Source of the DNA: Manis javanica
Lineage: Eukaryota > Chordata > Mammalia > Pholidota > Manidae
Reading direction: 5' to 3'
Assembly (NCBI RefSeq): GCF_040802235.1
Contig: NC_133156.1
Span: 181,052,351-181,116,350 of the forward strand
Length of the DNA stretch: 64,000 nucleotides
This document shows positions 6,180 to 47,400 of the stretch, one piece after another (the stretch's first letter is position 1; each line of letters begins with the position of its first letter). Made by a program: the position numbers and the translations under genes. Under the pieces are notes generated by a model. It ran no database searches and was not told the origin of the DNA. It saw only the letters and a program-made list of their open reading frames with translations.

Positions 6180-6600
6180 CATAAAAGCAAGTGAAAACCT
6201 ACTCTTATCAGTAGGAGAATGGATAAACAAACTGTGGTATATTTAAACAATGGAATATTAGTATTTGAAAAAAAAGAATAAACTACTGATGCATGCAAAA
6301 CATGCAGTGGATAAACCTCACAGACATTGCACTGAGCAAAAAAAGCCAGACATAAAACAGTACATGCTGAATTATTCCATGTATATGGAGTTCAAGAACA
6401 AACAAAACTAATTATAAGGATAGAATTGAGAAAAGCCGTTACCTCAAAGCAGAAGTGTCTCTCAACTGAAAAGGGGCACAAGGGAAATTTCCAGGGTATG
6501 TAAATGTTCTATGATTTAGGTAAAAAATCATCAAACTGTATCCTTAAGAGTTTTTCCTTTTACTGTATGTAAATTATAGCTCCACAAATAAAACCCAATG
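6180..6600 (+). mobile_element. old L1 3' end, sense
   Basis: The sequence ('gtaggagaatggataaacaaactgtggtat' region, then 'tggaatattagtatttgaaaa' and 'cacagacattgcactgagcaaaaaaagccagacata') is the canonical decayed L1M ORF2 end/3'UTR pattern. Confidence 0.7.
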
Positions 6601-10149: not shown

Positions 10150-10379
10150 ACACATAAAAGGCTATGCACAGTCAGATTCTTTATAATAGTTAGAAACAGG
10201 AACATGTCAAGGTAAAAAATTATGTACATTTACATGATGGAAGACTCTGGTGCTGTTGACACTATTGATTAGTTTGTACCATGATTGAGGGGGAAAAAAA
10301 ACATTCAAGATACAATGTTAAGTTAGTTACAAGAGTATGTATAATAGGATGCCATTGGTATAAATAATACTGATGGTGA
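10150..10379 (+). mobile_element. old L1 3' region, left half of the interrupted host element
   Basis: The sequence ending '...gttacaagagtatgtataataggatgccattgg' is the typical decayed L1 3' stretch. It continues on the far side of the composite insertion at 18,310-18,510, so this old L1 is the target into which the younger composite landed. Its last 17 bases (10,363-10,379) are the left copy of the target-site duplication. Confidence 0.6.
10363..10379 (+). repeat. left target-site duplication of L1-POM121 composite
   Basis: AATAATACTGATGGTGA. It matches 18,293-18,309 at 16 of 17 positions. The L1 5'UTR begins at the next base. Confidence 0.75.
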
Positions 10380-11344
10380 GGACTCTGGATTAAAGATGGT
10401 GGTGTGAGAGGTGAGACAGAGGCCTCCTCCCAAAACCACATATAATACAAAAATATAATTAATACAGCTGATCCTGAAAGAGTAACAGGAAAGAAGGCTG
10501 TGTCAGACTGCATACATGCAGAGAAAAGAACAGACATCAGGGAACAGGGTAACGTACCAAAGCCATGATCTGGTGGGACCCAAGCTCTTCCCCCACCTCA
10601 ACTCACTAGTGCAAGGAAGAGAAATGGAGCAGGGAGGGAGGAGAGGCCTGGGACTGCTGAACACCTAGCCCTGGAGATCTGCTCTGGGAGCATGAACCTA
10701 CATTGCATGGTGCACTGGTGATTAGTGGGGTTGGAAAACTAAGACAAGTGGAATGCCTGGAGAGACTGATATTCCAGCTGTTTGTGGAAAACAAGGATCC
10801 ATATGCAGCTGCTCTGGGACAAAGGAAAAGTGGGCAGTCTGAGAGACATCCTAAAAGCAAGTGGGTGGCTAAAGGGACAAGGATTGCACAGAGCTTACTG
10901 CTCAGGAGAAAGGACAGGTAGACAAAATTGTCCAGGCTCACTCTGCCCAGCAGGTTGAGAACTTCCAGGAGCTTCCGGCATTCCATCCCACTGGCTGGCT
11001 ACGCAGCTCTAAAGCCCCCCACAGTGATATGCATCCTGCTGCGCCTTCCACCCAGCCAGCCCGCACCTGTCTTGCAAACTGGCAGCCCCTACCCTGGTGT
11101 CAGGCCAGCCAGAGGAAAGCCCTGCCTATGGAGCTACAAACACAAAGCATAGAGGCTTATACTTGTGTGTTTGGCCAACTGATTCTGGCAGTGGAGACAG
11201 GCAGAGGAGCCAGGAAGCAGGAAATAGCTCTTTCCTCCCAAATAGGCACCCACACCGCTCCCCTACAACCCACAAAATAGCTCCAGGGGCTGAGCAGCTC
11301 CAGAGAGTAGAGTTTCTGGGAACTAGAGGGCGCCACATACAAAT
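10380..11344 (+). promoter_or_regulatory. L1 5'UTR (internal promoter region)
   Basis: It starts 'ggactctggattaaagatggtgg', the usual opening of laurasiatherian L1s with the 'aagatgg' YY1-like motif close to the 5' end, and runs to the ORF1 start codon. In intact L1s this segment holds the sense promoter. Here it would drive ORF1 and, further down, the POM121-like copy. Activity is unknown. Confidence 0.7.
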
Positions 11345-12093
11345 ATGAAAAGTCAGAGGAACCTGGTTCAAACCAAAATCCCACAAACACCAGAAAAAGG
11401 ATCAAGTGAAACCAAAATCACCAATCTTCCTGAATGAGATTTCAAAATAAAAATCATAAACATGCTCATGGAGGTATAGAAAAATTCAAGAACTTAGGGA
11501 AGAATTCAGGACAGAGATCCAATAATTACAGAATACAGTAGAGAGATTTAAAAGATTAGATATGGTAGAGGAGATGATAAATGAAATAGAACTTAGAGAA
11601 GAGGAATACAGAGAAGCTGGGGCACAGAGAGAAAAAAGGATCCCTAGGAATGAAAGAATATTGAGAGAATTGTGTGACCAACTCAAACGGAACATTATTT
11701 GTATTTTGGGTTACCAGAAGAAGAAGAAGAGAGAAAAAGGGATAGAAAGTGTCTTTGAGGAGGTAATTGCTGAAAACTTCCCCAATCTGGAGAAGGAGAT
11801 AGTCTCTCAGGCCATGGTGGTGTACAGATCTCCCAATACAAGGGGCCTATGGAAGACAACACCAAGACATAATAATTAAAATGGCAAAGATCAAGGATAA
11901 GGACAGACTGTTAAAAGAAGCCAGAGAGAGAAAAAAGATCACATACAAAGGAAAACCCATCAGGCTATCATCAAACTTCTCAACAGAAACCTTACAGGCC
12001 AGAATATTCAATGCAATGAAACAAAAGGGCCTTGAACCAAGAACACTCTACCCAGCAAGATTATCATTTAAATTAGAAGGAGAGATTAAATGA
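11345..12093 (+). pseudogene. L1 ORF1 (nucleic-acid chaperone), broken
   Basis: ORF1p is the trimeric RNA-binding protein of the L1 ribonucleoprotein. The start is placed at ATG 11,345, which opens with the typical MKSQRN peptide. The frame then stops after about 31 codons. The coiled-coil part is legible in another frame at 11,562-11,879 and the C-terminal domain in a third frame from 11,881 to the TGA at 12,091-12,093. So there is at least one premature stop and two frameshifts, and no functional product. The C-terminal end (about 'PARLSFKLEGEIK') is well preserved. Confidence 0.8.
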
Positions 12094-12481
12094 TTTCCAG
12101 ATAAGCAAAAGCTGAGGGAATTTACTTCCCACAAACCCTATCTACAGTGTATTTTGGAGGGACTGCTGTAGATGGAAGTGTTCCTAAGGCTAAATAGCTG
12201 TCATCAGAGGAAATAAAACCACAGTAAAGAAAGTAGAACAATTAATTACTACAGAAAAGCAAAATTAAATCAACTACCCCTAAAGTCAGTCAAGAGATAG
12301 ACAAAGAGTGCAGAATATGATACCTAATATATAAAAGAATGGAGGAGGAAGAAAAAGTAGGGGGAAAAAAAAGAACATTTAGATTGTGTTTGTAATAGCA
12401 TACTAAGTGAGTTAAGTTAGACTCTTAGATAGTAAGGGAATTAGCCTTGAACCTTTGGTAACCATAAATCTAAAGCCTGCA

Positions 12482-14075
12482 ATGGCAATAAGTACATACC
12501 TGTCAACAATAACTCTAAATATAAATGGTCTATATTCACCAATCAAAAGACATAATATCACTGAATGGATTAAAAAACAAGACCTTTCTATATGCTGCCT
12601 ACAGGAGACTCACTTCAAACCCAAAGACATACACAGACTAAAAGTGAAGGGATGGAAAAAGATATTCCATGCAACTAATAGGGAGGAAAAAGGAGGAGTG
12701 GAAGTACTTGAATCAGACCAAATAGACTTCAAAACAAAGAAAGTCACAAGAGACAAAGAAAGACATTATGTAATGATAAAGGGGTCAATCCAACAAGAAG
12801 ATATAACCATTATTAATATCTATGCACTCAACACAGGAGCACCTACATATGTGAAACAAATACTAACAGATTTAAAAGGGGAAATAGAATGCAATGCATT
12901 CATTCTAGGAGACTTCAACACTCCACCCAATCCAAAGGACACATCGACCAGGAAGAAAATAAGTAAGGACACAGAAGCACTGAAGAACACGTTAGAATAG
13001 ATGGACCAAATAGACATCTACAGAACTCTCCACACAAAAGCAACAGGATATACATTCTTCTCAAGTGCACATAGAGCATTTTCAAGAATAGATCATATAC
13101 TAGGCCACAAAGAGAGCCTCAGTAAATTCAAAAAGATTGAAATCGTACCAACTAGTTTCTCAGACCACAAAAGTATGAAAGTAGAAATAAAGTATGCAAA
13201 GAAAATGAAAAATCCCACAAACACATGGAGGCTTAACAACATGGTTCTAATAATCAACAGATCAATGACCAAATAAAAACAGATCAATGACCAAGCAATA
13301 TATGGAGACAAATGACAATAATAATTAAATACTGCAAAATCTGTGGGATGCAGCAAAGGCCATGCTAAGAGGGAAGTATATTGCAATACAGGCTTACCTC
13401 AGGAAAGAAGAACAATCCCATATGAACAGTCTAAACTCACAATTAACAAAAATAGAAAAAGAAGGACAAATAAGGCCCAAAGTCAGTAGAAGTAGGGACA
13501 TAATAAAGATTAGGGCAAAAATAAATAAAATCGAGAAGAATAAAACAATAGAAAGAATCAATGAAAACAGGAGCTGGTTCTTTGAGAAAGTAAACAAAAT
13601 AGATCAACCCCTAGCCAGACTTATCAAGAAAAAAAGAGAGACTACACACACAAACAGAATCAGAAATGAGAAAGGAAAAATCACTACGGACACCACAGAA
13701 ATACAAAGAATGATTAGAGAATATTATGAAAAATTATATGCCAACAAACTGGATAACCTAGAAGAAATGGACAACTTTTTAGAAAAATACAACCTTCTAA
13801 GGCTGACCCAGAAAGAAACAGAAAATCTGAACAGACCAATTACCAGCAATGAAATTGAATTAGCAATAAAAAAACTACCTAGGAACAAAACCCCTGGACC
13901 AGATGGCTTCATCACTAAATTTTATCAAATATTTAGTGAAGACCTAATAAACATCCTCCTTAAAGTTTTCCAAAAATTGGAAAAGGGAATACTTGCAAAC
14001 TCATTCTATGAGGCCAGCATCACTCTAATACCAAAACCAGGCAAAGATACCACAAAAAAAGACAAACTGCTTCAA
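12482..14075 (+). pseudogene. L1 ORF2 5' half: endonuclease and start of RT, broken
   Basis: ORF2p is the L1 endonuclease/reverse transcriptase. The start is placed at ATG 12,482 (MAISTYLS). The apurinic-type endonuclease is legible: 'LNINGL', 'CLQETHF' (catalytic Glu), 'LGDFN' and 'FSDHKS' (catalytic Asp-His). A TAG at about 12,998-13,000 interrupts the domain. A frame change near 13,280-13,360 leads into the linker and early reverse transcriptase ('NKTPGPDGF', '[13 protein letters not shown]'). The sequence then leaves L1 just where 'NYRPIS' should follow. The catalytic YADD region, the Cys-rich C-terminus and the L1 3'UTR are all absent, so the copy is dead. The inter-ORF spacer (12,094-12,481) has no feature of its own. 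Confidence 0.85.
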
Positions 14076-14968
14076 ACACCTGTAGCCCTCAGGGGGCAGT
14101 TCCGGGTGCTAGGAATTTTACTGGGGTTGGTGTTGGGGCCACGCCCTGTGACCTTTGGCAGGGTTTCCTTTGTGTGGGGCTGGTGTGCTTACAGCAGTGC
14201 TCACAGCCCCAGGTGACATCACAGTTGCCCTAGCTGGGCAGCCCAGTGCATGCTTAACCTGAGAGGAGTTAGAAGCAAAGGAGACCCTCTCCTAGTTCAT
14301 ACCCTATTCTCAGATCATTTGGCACACAATCAATTTTCTGTGTGGGCAATTTCCTTCCTAAGTTTCATGCCCCACTCTGCCGCCTCCCCAGCCCCACCTT
14401 CTTTGCCTACTGGTCCTTCCCATCCAGGACGCTGCCTGTGCACCTGCTGATTGTCCTGGCTGCAGGCTGTTCCACTGGGACCTTGTGTCTTTACCAGTTG
14501 ACTTTTCCATCAAGCTGCAGAGGCGGTATTCTCCCCTCTGGGAGTCCTGACTTCAATGAACCAGGGGTCCCACCAAAGAAGGCCACACTCTCGACTTATA
14601 ATTCCAAGATGTCTGGACTCCCGAGAACCACAAAAATGGCTCTCTCAGGGTGAAAACGTTCTCTCCTGCATCCACTACCTGAGGAGGTAGTCAAGGCTAA
14701 AGAGCCAGTGCCAGCTAGCGACCTCCCACTTCCTCGCCCGGAGGTAGAGGTCCCAAAAGAGCCTAGAAAGGGGACAACAGAGGAGGAGGAGGTTTACGCA
14801 GAGACCAAAGGGCAGCATGATGAGAACAGGGGCCCCCATGGCAGTGGGGGTCCATCATCAACATTTAGGCCCCTAGAGACCAGCAGGGTTCTCACTTCCC
14901 CAGAGGGCAGTCCTGGGCCTCTGGACTGTCCTAGGCTCCCAGAAGACGGCTCGAGAGAGACCACCCAG

Positions 14969-16567
14969 ATGAGCTCCTCCTCTGCAGACCGCATGGGCAC
15001 CACTTACAACCCGTCTGGAGGTGTCCTGCCTCCTCAGAAGTTTGATCCAGAGGCAGCAGTGCCCTCTGACCCAACCCCATGCTGCTCCCGGCTGCCAGGG
15101 AGGTCAGCAGAGGAAGTGCCAGGTGACAGTCATCAGCTGAGCCCTGCAGACTCACCAGCATCTGGGAAGAAGATGCAGCGCACAGAGCCTTCTGACACCC
15201 CAAGGAGCTCTTTACCAGGACCTGCCCACAGGAGGCCCTGCAGAAGGAAAATACCCATGCCTCTGACTCTGCCATGGCCACGGCCACTACCAGTGCTGTG
15301 GGATCACAGGGAGCTGCCCCAACCTCCTAAACTTCCTCACTTAGCTATTGCTGAAGACCCAGGTGCTGTGGAGAACAGTACTGACCATCAGAGAAACAAG
15401 AACTCAGAGGATAGAACGGAGGTCATGGCTGATGGCAGTGCCCCTCAGCCAGCCCCTTCCTCCTCCCCACTAGAGACTGCAAGCTCCCTGCCCTCAACCA
15501 GTCACACCTTACAGGTCCCTGCTACCACCGCCAACTTGGATGGCTTGTCTGCCAGGCCTCTGATCCCACCTGTCCCCCCACCTTCCCCCAAACCCAATAC
15601 TGAGCAGGAAACAAGAAACATGGCCCCTAACTCTCCTCCTCCCCTTGTTCCTGCTGAAACTGCTCCTCCTCTTAGTCCCAATCCTGTAGTTGGAATTCCA
15701 CCCAAGGAGAATGCAAGCCCTTGTCAGTCAGTCACAGCTACAGCATTTCATATTTCTGACCTCTGCACACCTCCCAGCACCTCAACCACCTTCTCCCAGC
15801 AGCCTTCCTGGGTAAGGGACTCCCCATCGCCTGTGTGTATAGATTCTCCCAGTCCTTGTTTCTTACCCATTCTGGTTCCAGGGCCTTCCCTCAGTAACTC
15901 TGTTCTCAGTGTCCCCACAGTCACCTCCACAGCAGGCCCTCCCACCATTGCCGCCCAGGCACCTGCAGGCTTGACCTCCCCACCTACTTCAGATCCTGAT
16001 ATGAACATGGACATGACTCCCCTTTCCCATGCTGTCATCTTCACTTCTCCCCCAGAGTCCACAGGGAGATTGCTCCCATTTACCCAAATCAGCTGCAGGG
16101 TGGACCAGAGGTACCCCCGCTTTTACCCACCCCATTGGCCACACCCCCGCTTTTACCCACCCCATCGGCCCCCAAACTGCCCCTCAGCTCACCATTGGAA
16201 TTCCCAGAATGCCTCTCTCCCCAGGGCTCCTGGTTCATTCCTTGTGGCGCCTTCAATCCCACACAATGCCATGGGCAGCACAATTGCAATCTTCAACCCT
16301 ACTTTTGATGATGATGCTATAGATACAACACCATCTTCCCAGGCTGTCATTTTCCAGTCTCCGCCTGTCTCTGGGAAGAATCATTTCCCAGCTTACATGG
16401 TGCCTCCTGGATCTCAGGACAAACTGCACAATGGCAGTATGGCCTCAGCCCATGTCTCCACCTTTTTACATCCCAAAGTAGGCAGCAGAAAAAATACAAT
16501 TTCCACCCATCTCTTTAACCCAGCAATCCCTGTTCCCAGCACTTCTCAAAACTGTGGTGGGCAGTAG
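14969..16567 (+). CDS. candidate 532-aa open frame within POM121-like copy
   Basis: The long open frame runs from the TGA at 14,651-14,653 to the TAG at 16,565-16,567. Its first in-frame ATG is at 14,969 (MSSSSADRMG...), giving 532 residues; a longer product would need a non-AUG start. Composition is extremely Pro/Ser/Thr-rich, with the POM121 'PPKL..' block near residues 107-125 and repeated 'AVIF.SPP' phrases ('SHAVIFTSPP', 'SQAVIFQSPP'). An in-frame 30-bp duplication adds a second PRFYPPH. The Kozak context is weak. Expression is unproven; the frame may be open by recency and composition rather than selection. Confidence 0.3.
   Translation: MSSSSADRMGTTYNPSGGVLPPQKFDPEAAVPSDPTPCCSRLPGRSAEEVPGDSHQLSPADSPASGKKMQRTEPSDTPRSSLPGPAHRRPCRRKIPMPLTLPWPRPLPVLWDHRELPQPPKLPHLAIAEDPGAVENSTDHQRNKNSEDRTEVMADGSAPQPAPSSSPLETASSLPSTSHTLQVPATTANLDGLSARPLIPPVPPPSPKPNTEQETRNMAPNSPPPLVPAETAPPLSPNPVVGIPPKENASPCQSVTATAFHISDLCTPPSTSTTFSQQPSWVRDSPSPVCIDSPSPCFLPILVPGPSLSNSVLSVPTVTSTAGPPTIAAQAPAGLTSPPTSDPDMNMDMTPLSHAVIFTSPPESTGRLLPFTQISCRVDQRYPRFYPPHWPHPRFYPPHRPPNCPSAHHWNSQNASLPRAPGSFLVAPSIPHNAMGSTIAIFNPTFDDDAIDTTPSSQAVIFQSPPVSGKNHFPAYMVPPGSQDKLHNGSMASAHVSTFLHPKVGSRKNTISTHLFNPAIPVPSTSQNCGGQ
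16111..16170 (+). repeat. 30-bp in-frame tandem duplication
   Basis: Two copies of an approximately 30-bp unit ('acccccgcttttacccacc...ggcc') start at 16,113 and 16,143. They encode PRFYPPH twice within the POM121-like open frame. Confidence 0.85.
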
Positions 16568-17267
16568 CCTAAACACTTGCACTTGCTGGGAAAACAGACA
16601 GCCCTGCTCTCCTGCCGCCCAGTCACCCAGCAGCCACAGAATGAAATCAAACTTCACAGGTTTCACATCGCTAGTCTTGGCATCTGGCACCACTGTGAAT
16701 GTCTGGCCAGCCGCTGGCATGTCCAGCAGCACAGCCACCACCAGTGGGTTTAGAGGTGCTACCAGGATGCCCAGCAGTGGGAACAGGAGTTCACTGCTCA
16801 CAGGTGCTACACCAGGCCCATCTGTGTGGGCAGCTCCTGCAGCCCCCGTGGGTGGAGGAAGACCTGGGCTCAGCGTATCTGCCCAAGACCCTACTCATTC
16901 ACAGGCATCCCAAATACTCAACCAGACGTCATCCAGGAAGAGGGCACATAGCCCCACTTCTGTTCCTCCTGGTGGCCATATAACCTGGGCTCCGTATGGC
17001 CACAGCACGGCTGCTTCAGGACAACAGGCAAGCACCTCAGCGGTAGGACACTCTATGAATACAACCTTACATCCGAGCATGTGGGGCTTACCTGTCCTAA
17101 ACAAAGATGGTACAGCAACGGGAGGCCCTAGTGTTCCCACATTCCATCAATAGGCCTGAAGCCCGCCTGGACGGGTAAGACCTACACTTGGAGGAACCAC
17201 CATCATGAAAAAGAGATGTGTGTCAAGAAACACGTCTGTTAACACCTTCCATCAGGGCAGCTGGGGC

Positions 17268-17443
17268 TCTCCTGGGCATACCACAGCCAGCCACTGCAGC
17301 TCTGAGTGCCAGCATTATTCCTGTGTCTAATTGCCCACTTCAGGTTCCACCTCCATCTCCTGGGCATACCACTGCCACTGTAGCTCCGAGTGCCAGCACT
17401 ATCCCAGCGTCTAATTATCCACATCTAGTTCCACCATCATCCC
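17268..17443 (+). repeat. 88-bp imperfect tandem duplication
   Basis: The unit beginning 'tctcctgggcatacca' at 17,268 recurs at 17,356, with shared 'gagtgccagca' and 'gtctaatt' blocks and a handful of differences. It lies in the frame-broken 3' part of the POM121-like copy. Confidence 0.8.
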
Positions 17444-18264
17444 AAGCACCTGGGGCACACCTGCCCAGAAAGCAGGTGTCATGAAGGTAGGGGACAACAT
17501 CATTACTGTGATTAAAGGACCTGGTGTTCCTATATTCATTCCATCAGTGCAGCTGGGCGCCACTGGGCCAAAACACAGGTGACACAGTTGAAGTAAAACA
17601 TCTCACCTATAATAGGATTTCCCTGTGTCACCACCTGCCATTACATCACTTGGAGCCCACCTACCCAGAGCACAGGTGGAGGTGTGGGTGATAGCACCAT
17701 GCCTGCTATGACTGGACATCTCACGGATCCCATCAATGCAGGGGACCTGGGGCCCTGCTAGCCAACAAAATGCAGGTGGTGCAACAGGGGACAGTACCAC
17801 CATTTTTAGAAACTAGTCTATTCTCATCCCAAACCCCTGCCGCCGTCGCTCCAGCAGGGCAGCCCTGTGACTCTGCAGGAGCCAGCAGCGTGTGTGGAGA
17901 CTCCTGGTCAAACAGCCACTGCTGTGTTCTGGGCCCAGCAAGCTGTACTGATCACAGTTTCACAGGAACCACCACTTGATTCCATCCTTCTGTCATGCAT
18001 CTCAACAAATATGGAGAAGATGTTGGTCTGCAATCTGTATATAGCATGAATGGACTTGACTGTATGGGAAACTCGACCTGCTCTCTTCCTATAGAAAGCC
18101 AGGAGCCTGCACCTCAGGAGTGTGTATGTTGTAAGGACAGTTTTTTCTAGTCCTGGAACTACTAAGGTGCCTATGGCTGTTGGTAGGGGCTTCATTTCCT
18201 CCTAACCATTTAACAAAATGGGCCCTTATCTTTCCCAGATCGTGTATATATATTATATATTCAT

Positions 18265-18270
18265 ATTAAA
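18265..18270 (+). terminator. polyadenylation signal of the POM121-like copy
   Basis: ATTAAA, followed about 13 bases later by the A-rich remnant tail (from about 18,284) and then by the right target-site duplication. Confidence 0.6.
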
Positions 18271-18292
18271 CCTTGTTCTTGTTAAAAATAAT

Positions 18293-18309
18293 AATAATAA
18301 TGATGGTGA
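18293..18309 (+). repeat. right target-site duplication of L1-POM121 composite
   Basis: AATAATAATGATGGTGA, 16/17 identical to 10,363-10,379. Its start merges with the A-rich tail and a short TAA-rich tract, so the left edge is not exact. Confidence 0.7.
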
Positions 18310-18510
18310 TGTTGATGCTACAGTTGAATAGATGAATGTTAAATAACTATTCATGAAGAAAAACCTATTGGAATCAACCTAAAACCATTTAAATGTTTAT
18401 ATCTGGGTATAGAATTGCAAAATGTATTTTCATTTTTTGCATATAAGTTGTAACATGTTTGGCTTTTTCCAGTGGGCCTATGTTACTTTGTGGACATTAA
18501 AATAATAATA
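18310..18510 (+). mobile_element. old L1 3' end, right half of the interrupted host element
   Basis: 'tttatatctgggtatagaattgcaaaatg', '...cattttttgcatataagttgtaacatg' and the terminal 'ttaaaataataataatag' are typical of an old L1 3' end. They continue the element broken at 10,379. Confidence 0.6.
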
Positions 18511-19399: not shown

Positions 19400-19424
19400 A
19401 CACACACACACACACGCACACACA

Positions 19425-19472
<48 letters not shown>

Positions 19473-21739: not shown

Positions 21740-22230
21740 TCTATCAAAATTTTATATACTCTTGACACAGAATTACACTCATTGGAATTTATCTCACAGA
21801 TATATTCACATTTATATAGTCAAGGATGTTGGCTACATGTTGATAAAAGCAAAAGGTTAGAAACTTCTTATATGCTCACAGATAGCGGACAAATTAACCC
21901 CCCTTACAATGGAGTACTATACAGCTGTAGAAAAGGATACCCAAACTCCTTATGTTTGGATAATTTCTCAGCTATTGTAGGTGGGAAAAAATTATATTGC
22001 TGAACAGCATGTATGCTTGCATATGCATATTTTTTTCTGAAAGAATACACAAGAAACTTAGATGTGGCTTCCTCAGGAGGTAGGTGGGTAGGGAAAAGAG
22101 AGGTTTTTGCTTTTCAATTTGGAATATACTTTTCTGTAGTAATTTACTTTTTCCCTCACCATTAGCAAGTATTATGTTCCTTATTAATTTAGGTAACATA
22201 TTTTTCATAGAAACAAACTAAAAAAAGACA
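21740..22230 (+). mobile_element. old L1-type fragment, sense
   Basis: 'aatggagtactatacagctgtagaaaagg' is the characteristic L1 'tggaatactatgcagc' segment. The flanks ('gatgttggctacatg', '...ttagatgtggcttcctcaggaggtaggtggg') fit an L1M/HAL1 3' end. Decayed. Confidence 0.65.
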
Positions 22231-22619: not shown

Positions 22620-22850
22620 GAGTGCGCGCGCACGCAGCGGCACGGGCTCGGCAGCGGCGGCGGCGACGACGTCACAGTCCGAGTTTTCCTTTTCGGGAGT
22701 CCCCGGCAAACATCCTGTGTCCATGTTTGGGCATTTACGTCACGACGGCAGGGCCGGGGCCTCCCGAAATGGCAGTGGCCCGGGGAGTCGGAAGCCCGGA
22801 GCCAGCGCCGCCGCTGCTATATAAGTGGGGGGGCCAAGCATTGGGGGAGG
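22620..22850 (+). promoter_or_regulatory. EGR4: EGR4 core and proximal promoter
   Basis: A CpG-rich promoter with a strong TATA box, TATATAAG at 22,818-22,825, predicts transcription start near 22,848. Upstream are CRE-like elements (ACGACGTCAC at 22,666-22,675; TTACGTCA at 22,735-22,742) and two CArG-like boxes with mismatches (CCTTTTCGGG at 22,688-22,697; CCATGTTTGG at 22,721-22,730). This is the layout expected of an immediate-early gene driven by CREB and SRF. Binding is inferred from motifs only. Confidence 0.75.
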
Positions 22851-23069: not shown

Positions 23070-24909
<1,840 letters not shown>

Positions 24910-38989: not shown

Positions 38990-39330
38990 TTGGCCACTTT
39001 GCCAACTTCTTCAGTTTTATCTACAGTCAATAGTCTATTCAGGCTTTCTATTTCTTCTTGGGCCAATTTTGATAATTTAATATTTTCCTAGAAAAGCTTT
39101 CAATTAATCCAGATTTTCAAAAACTGGGGCCAAGAGTTGTACCTGGTAGCATTTTAGTAATTTCTAAAAAATCTCTGTGTCAGTAGTTATTCTTCTTTTC
39201 ATTCATAGTTTTATGTGCTTGTTTTCTTTTTTTTTTTTCTTTTTGAATAGATTTGCCAGAGGGGTGTTTATTTTGTTGGTCTTTTCAGAAATCCATCTTC
39301 TGGATTTACCTTTGGGTTTTAATATACATA
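38990..39330 (-). mobile_element. old L1 ORF2 fragment, antisense
   Basis: 'ttctatttcttcttgggccaattttgataatttaatattttcctagaaa' and 'ttggtcttttcagaaatccatcttctgg' are antisense L1 endonuclease/RT-linker sequence. Confidence 0.7.
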
Positions 39331-44480: not shown

Positions 44481-47400
44481 ATGGCCTCGCTGGACCTCCC
44501 ATACCGCTGCCCCCGCTGCGGGGAGCACAAGCGCTTCCGCAGCCTGTCGTCGCTGCGGGCGCACCTGGAGTACAGTCACACGTACGAGACGCTCTACATC
44601 CTCTCCAAGACCAACAGCATCTGCGACGGCGCCGCCGCAGCGGCCGCAGCCGCGGCCGCCTCGGGTTTTCCGCTGTCCCCCGAGCCCGCCGCCCTGCTAG
44701 CCGTGCCCGGCGCTCGGCGCGAGGTTTTTGAGAGCACGTCCTTCCAGGGCAAGGAGCAGGTGGCCGGGCCGTCGCCCGCAGCGCCACACCTGCTGCACCA
44801 CCATCACCACCACGCGCCCCTCGCCCACTTCCCCGGCGACCTCGTGCCCGCCAGCCTGCCCTGCGACGAACTGGCTGAACCCGGCCTCGTGCCCGCCGCC
44901 GCCGCGCGCTACGCGCTGCGTGAGATCGAGATTCCGCTGGGGGAGCTGTTCGCCCGCAAGTCCGTGGCCTCGTCGGCTTGTTCGACGCCCCCGCCCGGGC
45001 CGGGCCCCGGGCCTGCGTCCGCCTCGCCCGCGTCCCCTTCTCCCGCCGATGTGGCTTACGAGGAGGGTCTGGCGCGCCTCAAAATCCGCGCGCTGGAGAA
45101 GCTGGAGGTGGACCGGCGGCTGGAGCGGCTGAGCGAGGAGGTGGAGCAGAAGATCGCTGGCCAGGTGGGCCGGCTGCAGGCTGAGCTGGAGCGCAAGGCG
45201 GCCGAACTGGAGACTGCGCGGCAGGAGAGCGCGCGGCTGGGGCGCGAGAAGGAGGAGCTGGAGGAGCGCGCTTCCGAGCTCTCCCGCCAGGTGGACGTGA
45301 GTGTAGAGCTCCTGGCCTCCCTCAAGCAGGACCTGGTGCACAAGGAACAGGAGCTGAGCCGAAAGCAACAGTGAGTAGCCCGCAGAGCCATGTAGTTGAT
45401 GTGCGCTTGAGTGTTCCAGAATGGGTGACAGCATGGAACACTGTGCCCCTGCCACCACCATGAGTGTGCGTGAGTGGCCGTGGTTTTGTAATACGGGATC
45501 TGTGGCCACGAGCATGAAATGGTGTGTGGGGCCAAGAGTGTCATGATGGAGTGTATTTGGGACCGTGAGTCAGTCCATGGCAATATGACCATGTGCCTCA
45601 CTGTGAAAATTGTCTCTCTTTCTTTTCTGTCTTCCTAGCCAGGCCTGCCCCTGCATGTTGTCTACTCAAAGACGTGGCTTAATTCTCCCCTCTCCATTTT
45701 CCATCATCGGAGTTTCCTTATTTACTGTATCATTCCTAAAAGCATACACACACAGAAGGTTGTTTACCCCATCTGCCCTAATGCCTCCTCCTCTTAAGCT
45801 TCTGACCTTTTTCTCTCCTTGGAAAACACCTTCAAAGTATTCTCTGTACTCCTGGTCTCCCATTTCCTTTCCCATCTTCTCCCTTAACCCACTTTGATCA
45901 GGTGTCTACCTCCACCGCTCTTCTCCATGTGATCAACCTGTATGCTGCCAAGACCCAGTCATCATCTTACTTGGCCCATCAGTTGCATTTGACATAGCTG
46001 ATCCTTGAAATAATTCCCTTCCAGGACACTCTCCTGGGATTTCCTAGCTTTTGTCTGCTTCTCAGTCACCTTTTCTGGCTTCTCATTGCTGTAGTCTTTA
46101 AATGTAGAATTATGAAATATATAGATGTTGTTTTTCTGTCCACATTGTGATATGAGCTCCATGGGCGCAGGAATTTTTCACTGGTTTGCCCACTGCTGTA
46201 TCCCCAATACCCTAGAACAGTCTCTGACACCTACAAAGTGCTCAGTAAATGTTGAATGGATGCATAGACAACTGTGAATGTGTTTGGGAGTAAATACTCA
46301 TATCACACATAAACATGATGTTGACCCTTAATACATTTGAACTGCAAGGGTCTATTTATATGGAGATCTTTTTTTTTCTCATTATATCAGCATTGCACTG
46401 GTTTATTTTTCTTTAATTTTTTATTAAGATATTATTAATACACACTCTTATGAAGGTTGCACATGAAAAAACAATGTGGTTACTACATTTACCCATTTTA
46501 TTAAGTCCCTACCCATATTCCAATGCAGTCACTGTCCATCAGTGTAGTAAGATGCCACAGATTGACTGTTTGCCTTCTCTGTGCTACACTGTTCTCCCCA
46601 TGATCCCCCACACCATGTGTACTAAACATAATACCCCTCAATCCCCTTCTCCCTCCCTCCCCACCCGCCTTCCCACACCCCTCCCCTTTGGTAACCACTA
46701 GTCCCTTCTTGGAGTCTGTGAGTCTGCTGCTATTTTGTTCCTTCAGTTTTGCTTCATTGTTATACTCCACAAATGAGGGAAATCATTTGGCACTTGTCTT
46801 TCTACATGGAGATCTTTTAAATAAAGGTGTTAGGAAAATTTTTGGAGACTTGTGACAATTTGAAAAAACATTTTATTTTCTCTAGCAGACTTTGTAGTAA
46901 GACTATATAGCATGTAATACATATAATATACAAAATATGTGTTAATCAACTGCTTATGTTATCGATAAGACTTCTGGTCAACAGGAGGCTGTTACTAGTT
47001 AAGTTTGGGGGAGCTCAAAAGCTATACACAATTGTTAACTGTTCAGGGGTCAGCCTCCCTAACCCCTGCATTGTTTGAGGGTCAATTGTATGTGTACATG
47101 GGTAAATGTGCATGTATATGAGTGATATAGGCTATGCATACATGGCTGTGCAACCCTAAGGGTGTGCCCGTGATTGTTTCTGGAGGGAGGAGGTGGCTGT
47201 GTGTGACTGAGCATACCTATGAGCATTTCCCTTGGTAGTGGGGGCGTTTAGTTGTATGTATGGGGCTGGGTCGGTGGTGTGTGGAGTGTGTGACCCAGAG
47301 AGTGTGCTTGCTTTTCTGTGTGTGCCATGAGCAGAGAGTGCCTGGACCTGTGCTGCACATACCCACATGACTGTGAGCAGATACAGCGGGCAGCTGTGCT

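Follow-up and report, generated by a model that had tools for sequence, protein, structure and literature searches.

Chimeric retrogenes mediated by long interspersed nuclear elements (LINEs) are composite insertions in which two RNAs have been copied in the same sense, with one target-site duplication and an A-tail at the 3' end, and U6/L1, 5S/L1 and mRNA/L1 combinations are described in the available parts of PMC13174262, PMC2104539 and PMC4476161. The accessible portion of PMC2104539 gives as their hallmarks a full-length 5' part, a 5'-truncated 3' part that is mostly a LINE, truncation sites that are random in the RNA, a common orientation and one pair of short direct repeats; in PMC13174262, to the extent that its text was available, the foreign RNA stands at the 5' end of the L1, and the survey sought insertions 5' of L1. 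A second relevant system is the family of intronless retrogenes related to POM121, in which NPAP1 arose by duplication of a retrotransposed POM121 paralogue, according to the available part of a review (PMC5408686). This article describes a locus in Manis javanica, within a stretch of 64,000 nucleotides (assembly GCF_040802235.1, contig NC_133156.1, positions 181,052,351 to 181,116,350 of the forward strand; hereafter the window), where the 5' half of an L1 is joined to an NPAP1-like sequence. It may represent a chimeric retropseudogene that was inserted once, in the pangolin lineage, into an old L1 upstream of EGR4, by priming on an mRNA and a subsequent jump to an L1 RNA, an account to which we assign a probability of about 0.5.

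The L1 part lies in the sense orientation and spans 10,380 to about 14,064-14,093, from its presumed 5' end into open reading frame 2 (ORF2), where it is joined directly to the NPAP1-like part, which has the same sense and carries a poly(A) signal and an A-rich tail at its far end. The L1 5' end is placed at 10,380 from the motif AAGATGG at base 14 of the insert, close to its position in human L1. The RNA-binding domain of ORF1 (PF02994, 11,562-11,879) gives a weak match of 20.9 bits, under the curated cut-off of 22.4, and the endonuclease domain of ORF2 (PF03372) is recognized with an E-value of 2e-11. Homology to the ORF2 protein (ORF2p; PDB chains, E ~1e-93) stops at residue 534-535 of 1,274-1,275, and the 3' truncation is put at residue about 525-535. 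ORF2 contains a stop codon at 12,998, and a frame change within it adjoins a 17-bp direct duplication (13,256 and 13,278).

The 3' partner, which extends up to 18,283, can be identified from its sequence as an intronless pseudogene of the NPAP1-like type, a POM121-family retrogene. Its POM121 domain (PF15229) scores 65.4 bits (E 9e-18), above the curated cut-off of 27. Among 7,990 proteins scored, 11 match at E <=1e-3, comprising three named NPAP1, five unnamed or 'UPF0607' proteins of the deer family, and three NPAP1-like proteins of armadillo. An alpaca protein annotated as 'nuclear pore-associated protein 1-like' ranks first, with 43% across 100% of the 619-aa query, followed by two proteins also named nuclear pore-associated protein 1, the first from a mustelid (36% over 91%) and the second from a pangolin, whose match of 42% over 44% of the query argues that it is a paralogue rather than the copy at this locus. 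By tblastn the alpaca protein covers 14,564-17,734, passing through frames 2, 3, and 2 and leaving gaps, and the longest open stretch runs from 14,654 to 16,564. A peptide read from 14,342, VGNFLPKF, resembles the mustelid N-terminus MGNLLSKF, so that this copy seems to start within its own 5' untranslated region (UTR), presumably the 250-280 bp or so that separate the junction from the N-terminus-like start. At the other end, the ATTAAA at 18,265 is followed by 13 nt and then by A5 and TAA units, a tail that is short and decayed. The initial annotation had described a sense L1 5' half joined to intronless POM121-family sequence with ATTAAA and a short A-rich tail, an anatomy borne out by the domains and the sequence; the partner that it called POM121-like was placed in the right family, and is more exactly NPAP1-like and reaches upstream to the N-terminus. 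Two internal repeats were also seen in the NPAP1-like part: a 28-bp direct duplication at 16113-16170 (96% identical, starts 30 bp apart, frame kept), and six degenerate 40-nt units at 17067-17675 in the 3' coding part (60-75% to the reference copy, starts 88-180 bp apart), perhaps left over from a repeated region at the C-terminus.

The two parts are enclosed by a single pair of 17-bp direct repeats, AATAATACTGATGGTGA on the left and AATAATAATGATGGTGA on the right (Table 1). Their identity of 16/17, which had been reported previously, withstands comparison with chance: when 17 bp were set against a 67-bp region, none of 19,934 random position pairs reached 16/17 and one reached 15, and the next best plus-strand place for the left repeat in the window matches at 13/17. 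With a match scored as +1 and a mismatch as -2, the outer borders yield a score of 14 for their best 8-22 bp repeat, where the maximum of 1,497 random region pairs is 12; this null was drawn without a minimum length, and its usual scores of 4-6 represent short exact runs. The initial annotation had named separate duplications around each half as an observation that would speak against a single insertion, and no duplication of at least 8 bp was found for either half, the best 8-22 bp repeat of the L1 or the NPAP1 half alone scoring 3. It had also cautioned that the right repeat lies in a TAA/GAT-rich tract; the tract may account for part of that repeat, but not for the 9-bp core TGATGGTGA, which has just two plus-strand occurrences in the window, at 10,371 and 18,301, and no copies on the minus strand. 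A length of 17 bp fits the ~7-20 bp expected of L1-mediated insertion by target-primed reverse transcription. The nick reads by eye as AT/AAAT, 4/6 of the endonuclease motif TT/AAAA, which in AT-rich sequence and without a control speaks neither for nor against that enzyme.

Beyond the repeats, the halves of an older L1 that had been noted earlier find support in alignments to a hand-written generic consensus of L1M 3' ends. Positions 13-249 of this consensus match the left flank at a score of 114.5, a value attained by 0/300 shuffles and 1/245 other window stretches, and positions 234-424 match the right flank at 78.0, which is weak alone (4/300 shuffles and 4/241 window stretches score as high). 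Joining the two flanks over a single duplication copy raises the score to 171, a level reached by 0/300 shuffles and 3/247 window stretches. With the left flank held fixed, none of 1,000 shuffled right flanks reaches 171 (maximum 165.5), and 1/565 other window stretches does so, the one at 22,020, which belongs to a different old L1 end. The consensus is usable as a probe, since it also picks out old L1 ends at 21,810-22,186 (182.5) and 6,181-6,562 (140); compared directly with those two copies, the joined flanks score 90.5-95, without a control. The pre-insertion site was most likely one uninterrupted old L1.

The decay of the two parts, expressed as stops per codon, is equal within wide error and gives no sign of a later arrival of the NPAP1-like part: 4 stops were counted in 738 codons of the L1 (d 0.051, 0.013-0.101) and 6 in 981 codons of the NPAP1-like part (d 0.081, 0.027-0.148). 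These are rough values, obtained in frames chosen by hand from tblastn and three-frame translation, leaving out ORF1 before 11,490 (where there are further stops), 13,277-13,328, 14,342-14,563, and everything after 17,528; the L1 stop at 13,274 and several of the NPAP1 stops adjoin frame changes or weak alignment, and the parents were maybe not intact. CpG ratios do not date either part.

Table 1. Features of the chimeric insertion and its flanks, in window coordinates.
Feature	Position	Strand	Basis
Left piece of old L1M-type 3' end (pre-existing host sequence)	10158..10362	+	Alignment to hand-written consensus
Left target-site duplication	10363..10379	+	Sequence, repeat search
L1 5'UTR	10380..11345	+	Presumed 5' end; AAGATGG at +14
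L1 ORF1 remnant, broken (stops and frameshift)	11346..12150	+	PF02994, three-frame translation
L1 ORF2, endonuclease and start of reverse transcriptase part, 3'-truncated	12455..14069	+	PF03372, ORF2p homology
Interval holding the L1/NPAP1-like junction	14064..14093	+	Protein and DNA alignments; preceded by A7 at 14,054-14,060
Presumed 5'UTR of NPAP1-like mRNA	14094..14341	+	Place between junction and N-terminus-like sequence
NPAP1-like intronless coding remnant	14342..17734	+	PF15229, homologues, tblastn frames; start ATG now GTG
Putative NPAP1-like 3'UTR	17735..18283	+	Sequence; ATTAAA at 18,265-18,270
Short A-rich / (TAA)n tail	18284..18292	+	Sequence
Right target-site duplication	18293..18309	+	16/17 identical to left
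Right-hand continuation of that old L1M-type 3' end	18313..18489	+	Alignment to hand-written consensus, on from ~position 250

In having two same-sense RNAs, one duplication, and a 3' A-tail, the locus is like the LINE-mediated chimeric retrogenes as they appear in the available parts of PMC13174262, PMC2104539 and PMC4476161; unlike them, it has the L1 as its 5' partner, cut at the 3' side, and an mRNA retrocopy that is not obviously 5'-truncated as its 3' partner. Set against the hallmarks in the accessible text of PMC2104539, the parts are directly joined in the same orientation and lie between a single pair of short direct repeats, but the 5' part is not a full-length cellular RNA, the L1 stopping at ORF2 residue about 525-535 of 1,275. 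The 3' part, where 5' truncation is the hallmark, extends upstream of the NPAP1 N-terminus and may still fall short of the mRNA start. That known chimeras generally carry the L1 at the 3' side, as had been remarked earlier, agrees with what could be seen of PMC13174262 and PMC2104539. The titles and abstract openings available from the open-licence literature describe no L1-5'/mRNA-3' order, contain nothing on POM121L12 as a retrogene or on NPAP1L, and report no pangolin LINE-1 retrocopy chimera, and the available part of PMC2912911 holds nothing decisive. Our own reading of the reversed partner order is that it is an unusual variant of the known chimeras. The 3' part resembles other members of the NPAP1/POM121-related retrogene family in being intronless, in its PF15229 domain and in its mustelid-like N-terminus, and differs from them in its broken frame, its fusion to an L1, and its location upstream of EGR4.

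A single retrotransposition of the chimera is the best reading of these data. In this scheme ORF2p of an L1 would have nicked the target and begun priming at the poly(A) tail of an mRNA of the NPAP1-like type, reverse transcription would have proceeded up to the 5' end of that mRNA, and the enzyme would then have moved by a jump to an L1 RNA, entering it within ORF2 and following it as far as its 5' end. That one L1-driven event in this way took a polyadenylated host mRNA as its first template and L1 RNA as its second, so placing the L1 5' and the retrogene 3', is a tentative proposal that we rate at a little under even odds. One event would account at once for the repeat pair around the whole insert, the uninterrupted pre-insertion site, the similar decay of the two parts, and the extension of the NPAP1-like part into its 5' region; that this part seems to start with its own N-terminal region is what would be expected if the reverse transcriptase ran off the 5' end of the mRNA before jumping. 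Template switching between a trans-mobilized mRNA and U6, and switching among LINE RNAs that yields mosaic LINEs, are reported in the available parts of PMC4476161 and PMC2104539, respectively. Of the one-event interpretation put forward in the initial annotation, the shared duplication and the split older L1 are supported; the template jump itself goes beyond them, a single duplication being expected as well from nesting of the retrocopy in an L1 with later loss of the sequence between the tails, or from a ready-made L1-NPAP1 RNA.

Several points weigh against such a jump. Mosaic L1-L1 elements aside, an L1 as 5' partner is not described in the available portions of the literature on these chimeras, which show either L1 or an mRNA at the 3' side. 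The jump would have to land inside the L1 RNA, the nearest upstream AATAAA being at 13,946, more than 100 nt off. The A7 run at 14,054 begins 10-16 nt before the likelier junction, and such a run with its gap resembles an L1-endonuclease target followed by a gap of duplication length, which lends mild support to the junction having arisen by nesting, and with it to the models of nested insertion and of a pre-formed RNA. Over 2,685 L1 positions, a run starting 7-20 nt upstream was A7 in 52, A6 in 94, A5 in 325, and A4 in 721, counts that include the junction's own run and come from a test chosen after the sequence had been seen. The force of this hint depends on where the junction lies. L1 protein identity passes through a 13-residue stretch and then falls off; ENYRPISL is present in 26/59 L1 matches, and either it or a close variant in 38/59, and the window's KKDKLLQ or TPVAL in 0/59. 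HMMER and BLAST carry the L1 match to ~14,090 only via a 2-residue gap, and local DNA alignments to two hand-written generic L1 stretches reach 14,093 with gaps (44.5 and 55.0), the extension past 14,069 alone scoring 15.5 against one of them; among 2,000 other stretches, 8.1% do as well. A junction at 14,064-14,069 is judged more likely than one at 14,093; for the latter the A7 hint vanishes, and the GGGGG at 14,092 would then fit the 5' end of a capped mRNA.

A sequential origin, which we regard as unlikely but substantial, would begin with a full-length L1 that created the 17-bp duplication, continue with insertion of the NPAP1-like retrocopy into ORF2 at the A7 run, and end with a deletion between the two poly(A) tails that removed the L1 3' half (~2.7 kb, an estimate) together with the inner right duplication. 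Every step would be an ordinary kind of event, and the sequence of steps accounts for the single outer duplication, the spacing of A7 from the junction, the L1 5' end, and the lost L1 3' half. The deletion, however, must have had both its ends in A-tails, and the inner duplication has left no trace: a second copy of the 16-mer expected from a nested insertion is absent from the plus strand, where the next best match is 13/16 and lies inside the L1. The NPAP1-like part, moreover, does not look younger than the L1 part, within the wide error of the decay estimate. The locus shares with a processed pseudogene nested in an L1 a sense retrocopy joined to ORF2 just behind A7, and departs from it in that neither an inner duplication nor an L1 3' half was found.

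Less likely again is a pre-formed RNA, in which an NPAP1-like copy lying elsewhere within an L1 or behind one, or two RNAs joined by ligation or splicing, would have supplied a single molecule that was retroposed here in trans, the L1 promoter driving a transcript that ended at the NPAP1 ATTAAA. Such an RNA would produce the same anatomy without a jump of the reverse transcriptase and would explain the A7 site, and the available part of PMC13174262 prefers fusion RNAs from cis- or trans-splicing as the explanation of mRNA/L1 chimeras. Against it, no second copy of the junction was seen among predicted proteins (59/157 scored candidates at E <=10), which is a weak test of DNA, and splicing at the junction is disfavoured, there being no GT donor directly behind either candidate breakpoint when generic L1 codons are compared by eye. 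That two unrelated insertions happen to carry similar outer repeats through TAA-rich sequence is very improbable and largely refuted, since the right repeat does sit in a TAA/GAT tract but the 9-bp core falls outside the TAA tract, no random pair was as good, and the flanks are continuous in one old L1. The weights given to these four accounts are judgements, and the remainder is unassigned.

The product reads as dead DNA and not as a working L1-driven gene. A functional L1-driven protein of the POM121 family was considered and rejected, the NPAP1 frame being broken by stops and frame changes so that no intact frame remains. The earlier remark that an L1 promoter is placed upstream of a POM121-family frame carries little weight, since that frame is broken, ORF1 and ORF2 precede it, and the open frame that leaves L1 ORF2 stops at 14,214-14,216, before the NPAP1 start and in a frame other than that of NPAP1. 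A fusion protein was likewise not found, 0/59 matches (157 predicted proteins scored) holding the post-junction peptide, a 5-residue chance match aside. A scan of viral contigs with the L1 ORF2 part gave 25 pattern matches, with 0 confirmed.

If the locus did arise in one event, L1 RNA can serve as the second template in the trans-retroposition of an mRNA, and retrocopies could arise with an L1 5' region and promoter ahead of them. This would be a class missed by surveys that look only 5' of L1, as in the design given in the available part of PMC13174262. The locus supplies exact coordinates upstream of EGR4 for comparison in pangolins and carnivores.

EGR4 is encoded at ~22.85-24.9 kb of the window, and the insertion lies ~4.5 kb upstream of its TATA box, TATATAAG, at 22,818. 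The exon at 23,515-24,906 has 95% identity to a Smutsia gigantea protein, the best among the 120 matches listed, of 189 with E <=1e-60 (7,979 candidates scored); the next named species is Crocuta, at 91%. With its EGR4 nearest to a pangolin protein, the window looks like pangolin DNA, and a human origin was rejected. FBXO41 starts at ~44.4 kb (PF23165), and a minus-strand stretch at 63.2-63.4 kb was recognized from its translation as what we take to be CCT7; the order EGR4, FBXO41, CCT7 is presumably that of human 2p13. An apparent L1 match near 63.3 kb was set aside as chance, the stretch reading as the recognized CCT7 exon. Rfam and tRNA scans gave 0 matches each, and no abundant young family of short interspersed nuclear elements is visible in 1-64000 at the sensitivity of a self-BLAST. 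A (CA)n microsatellite occupies 19401-19470, ~1.1 kb to the right of the insertion, and an old L1 ORF2 fragment lies on the minus strand at 38998-39322 (tblastn with L1 proteins). Besides the repeat inside the NPAP1-like part, the self-BLAST returned one interspersed repeat pair only, at 936-1291 and 46408-46767, whose members are 76% identical in opposite orientation and by eye resemble the 3' end of a younger L1 family.

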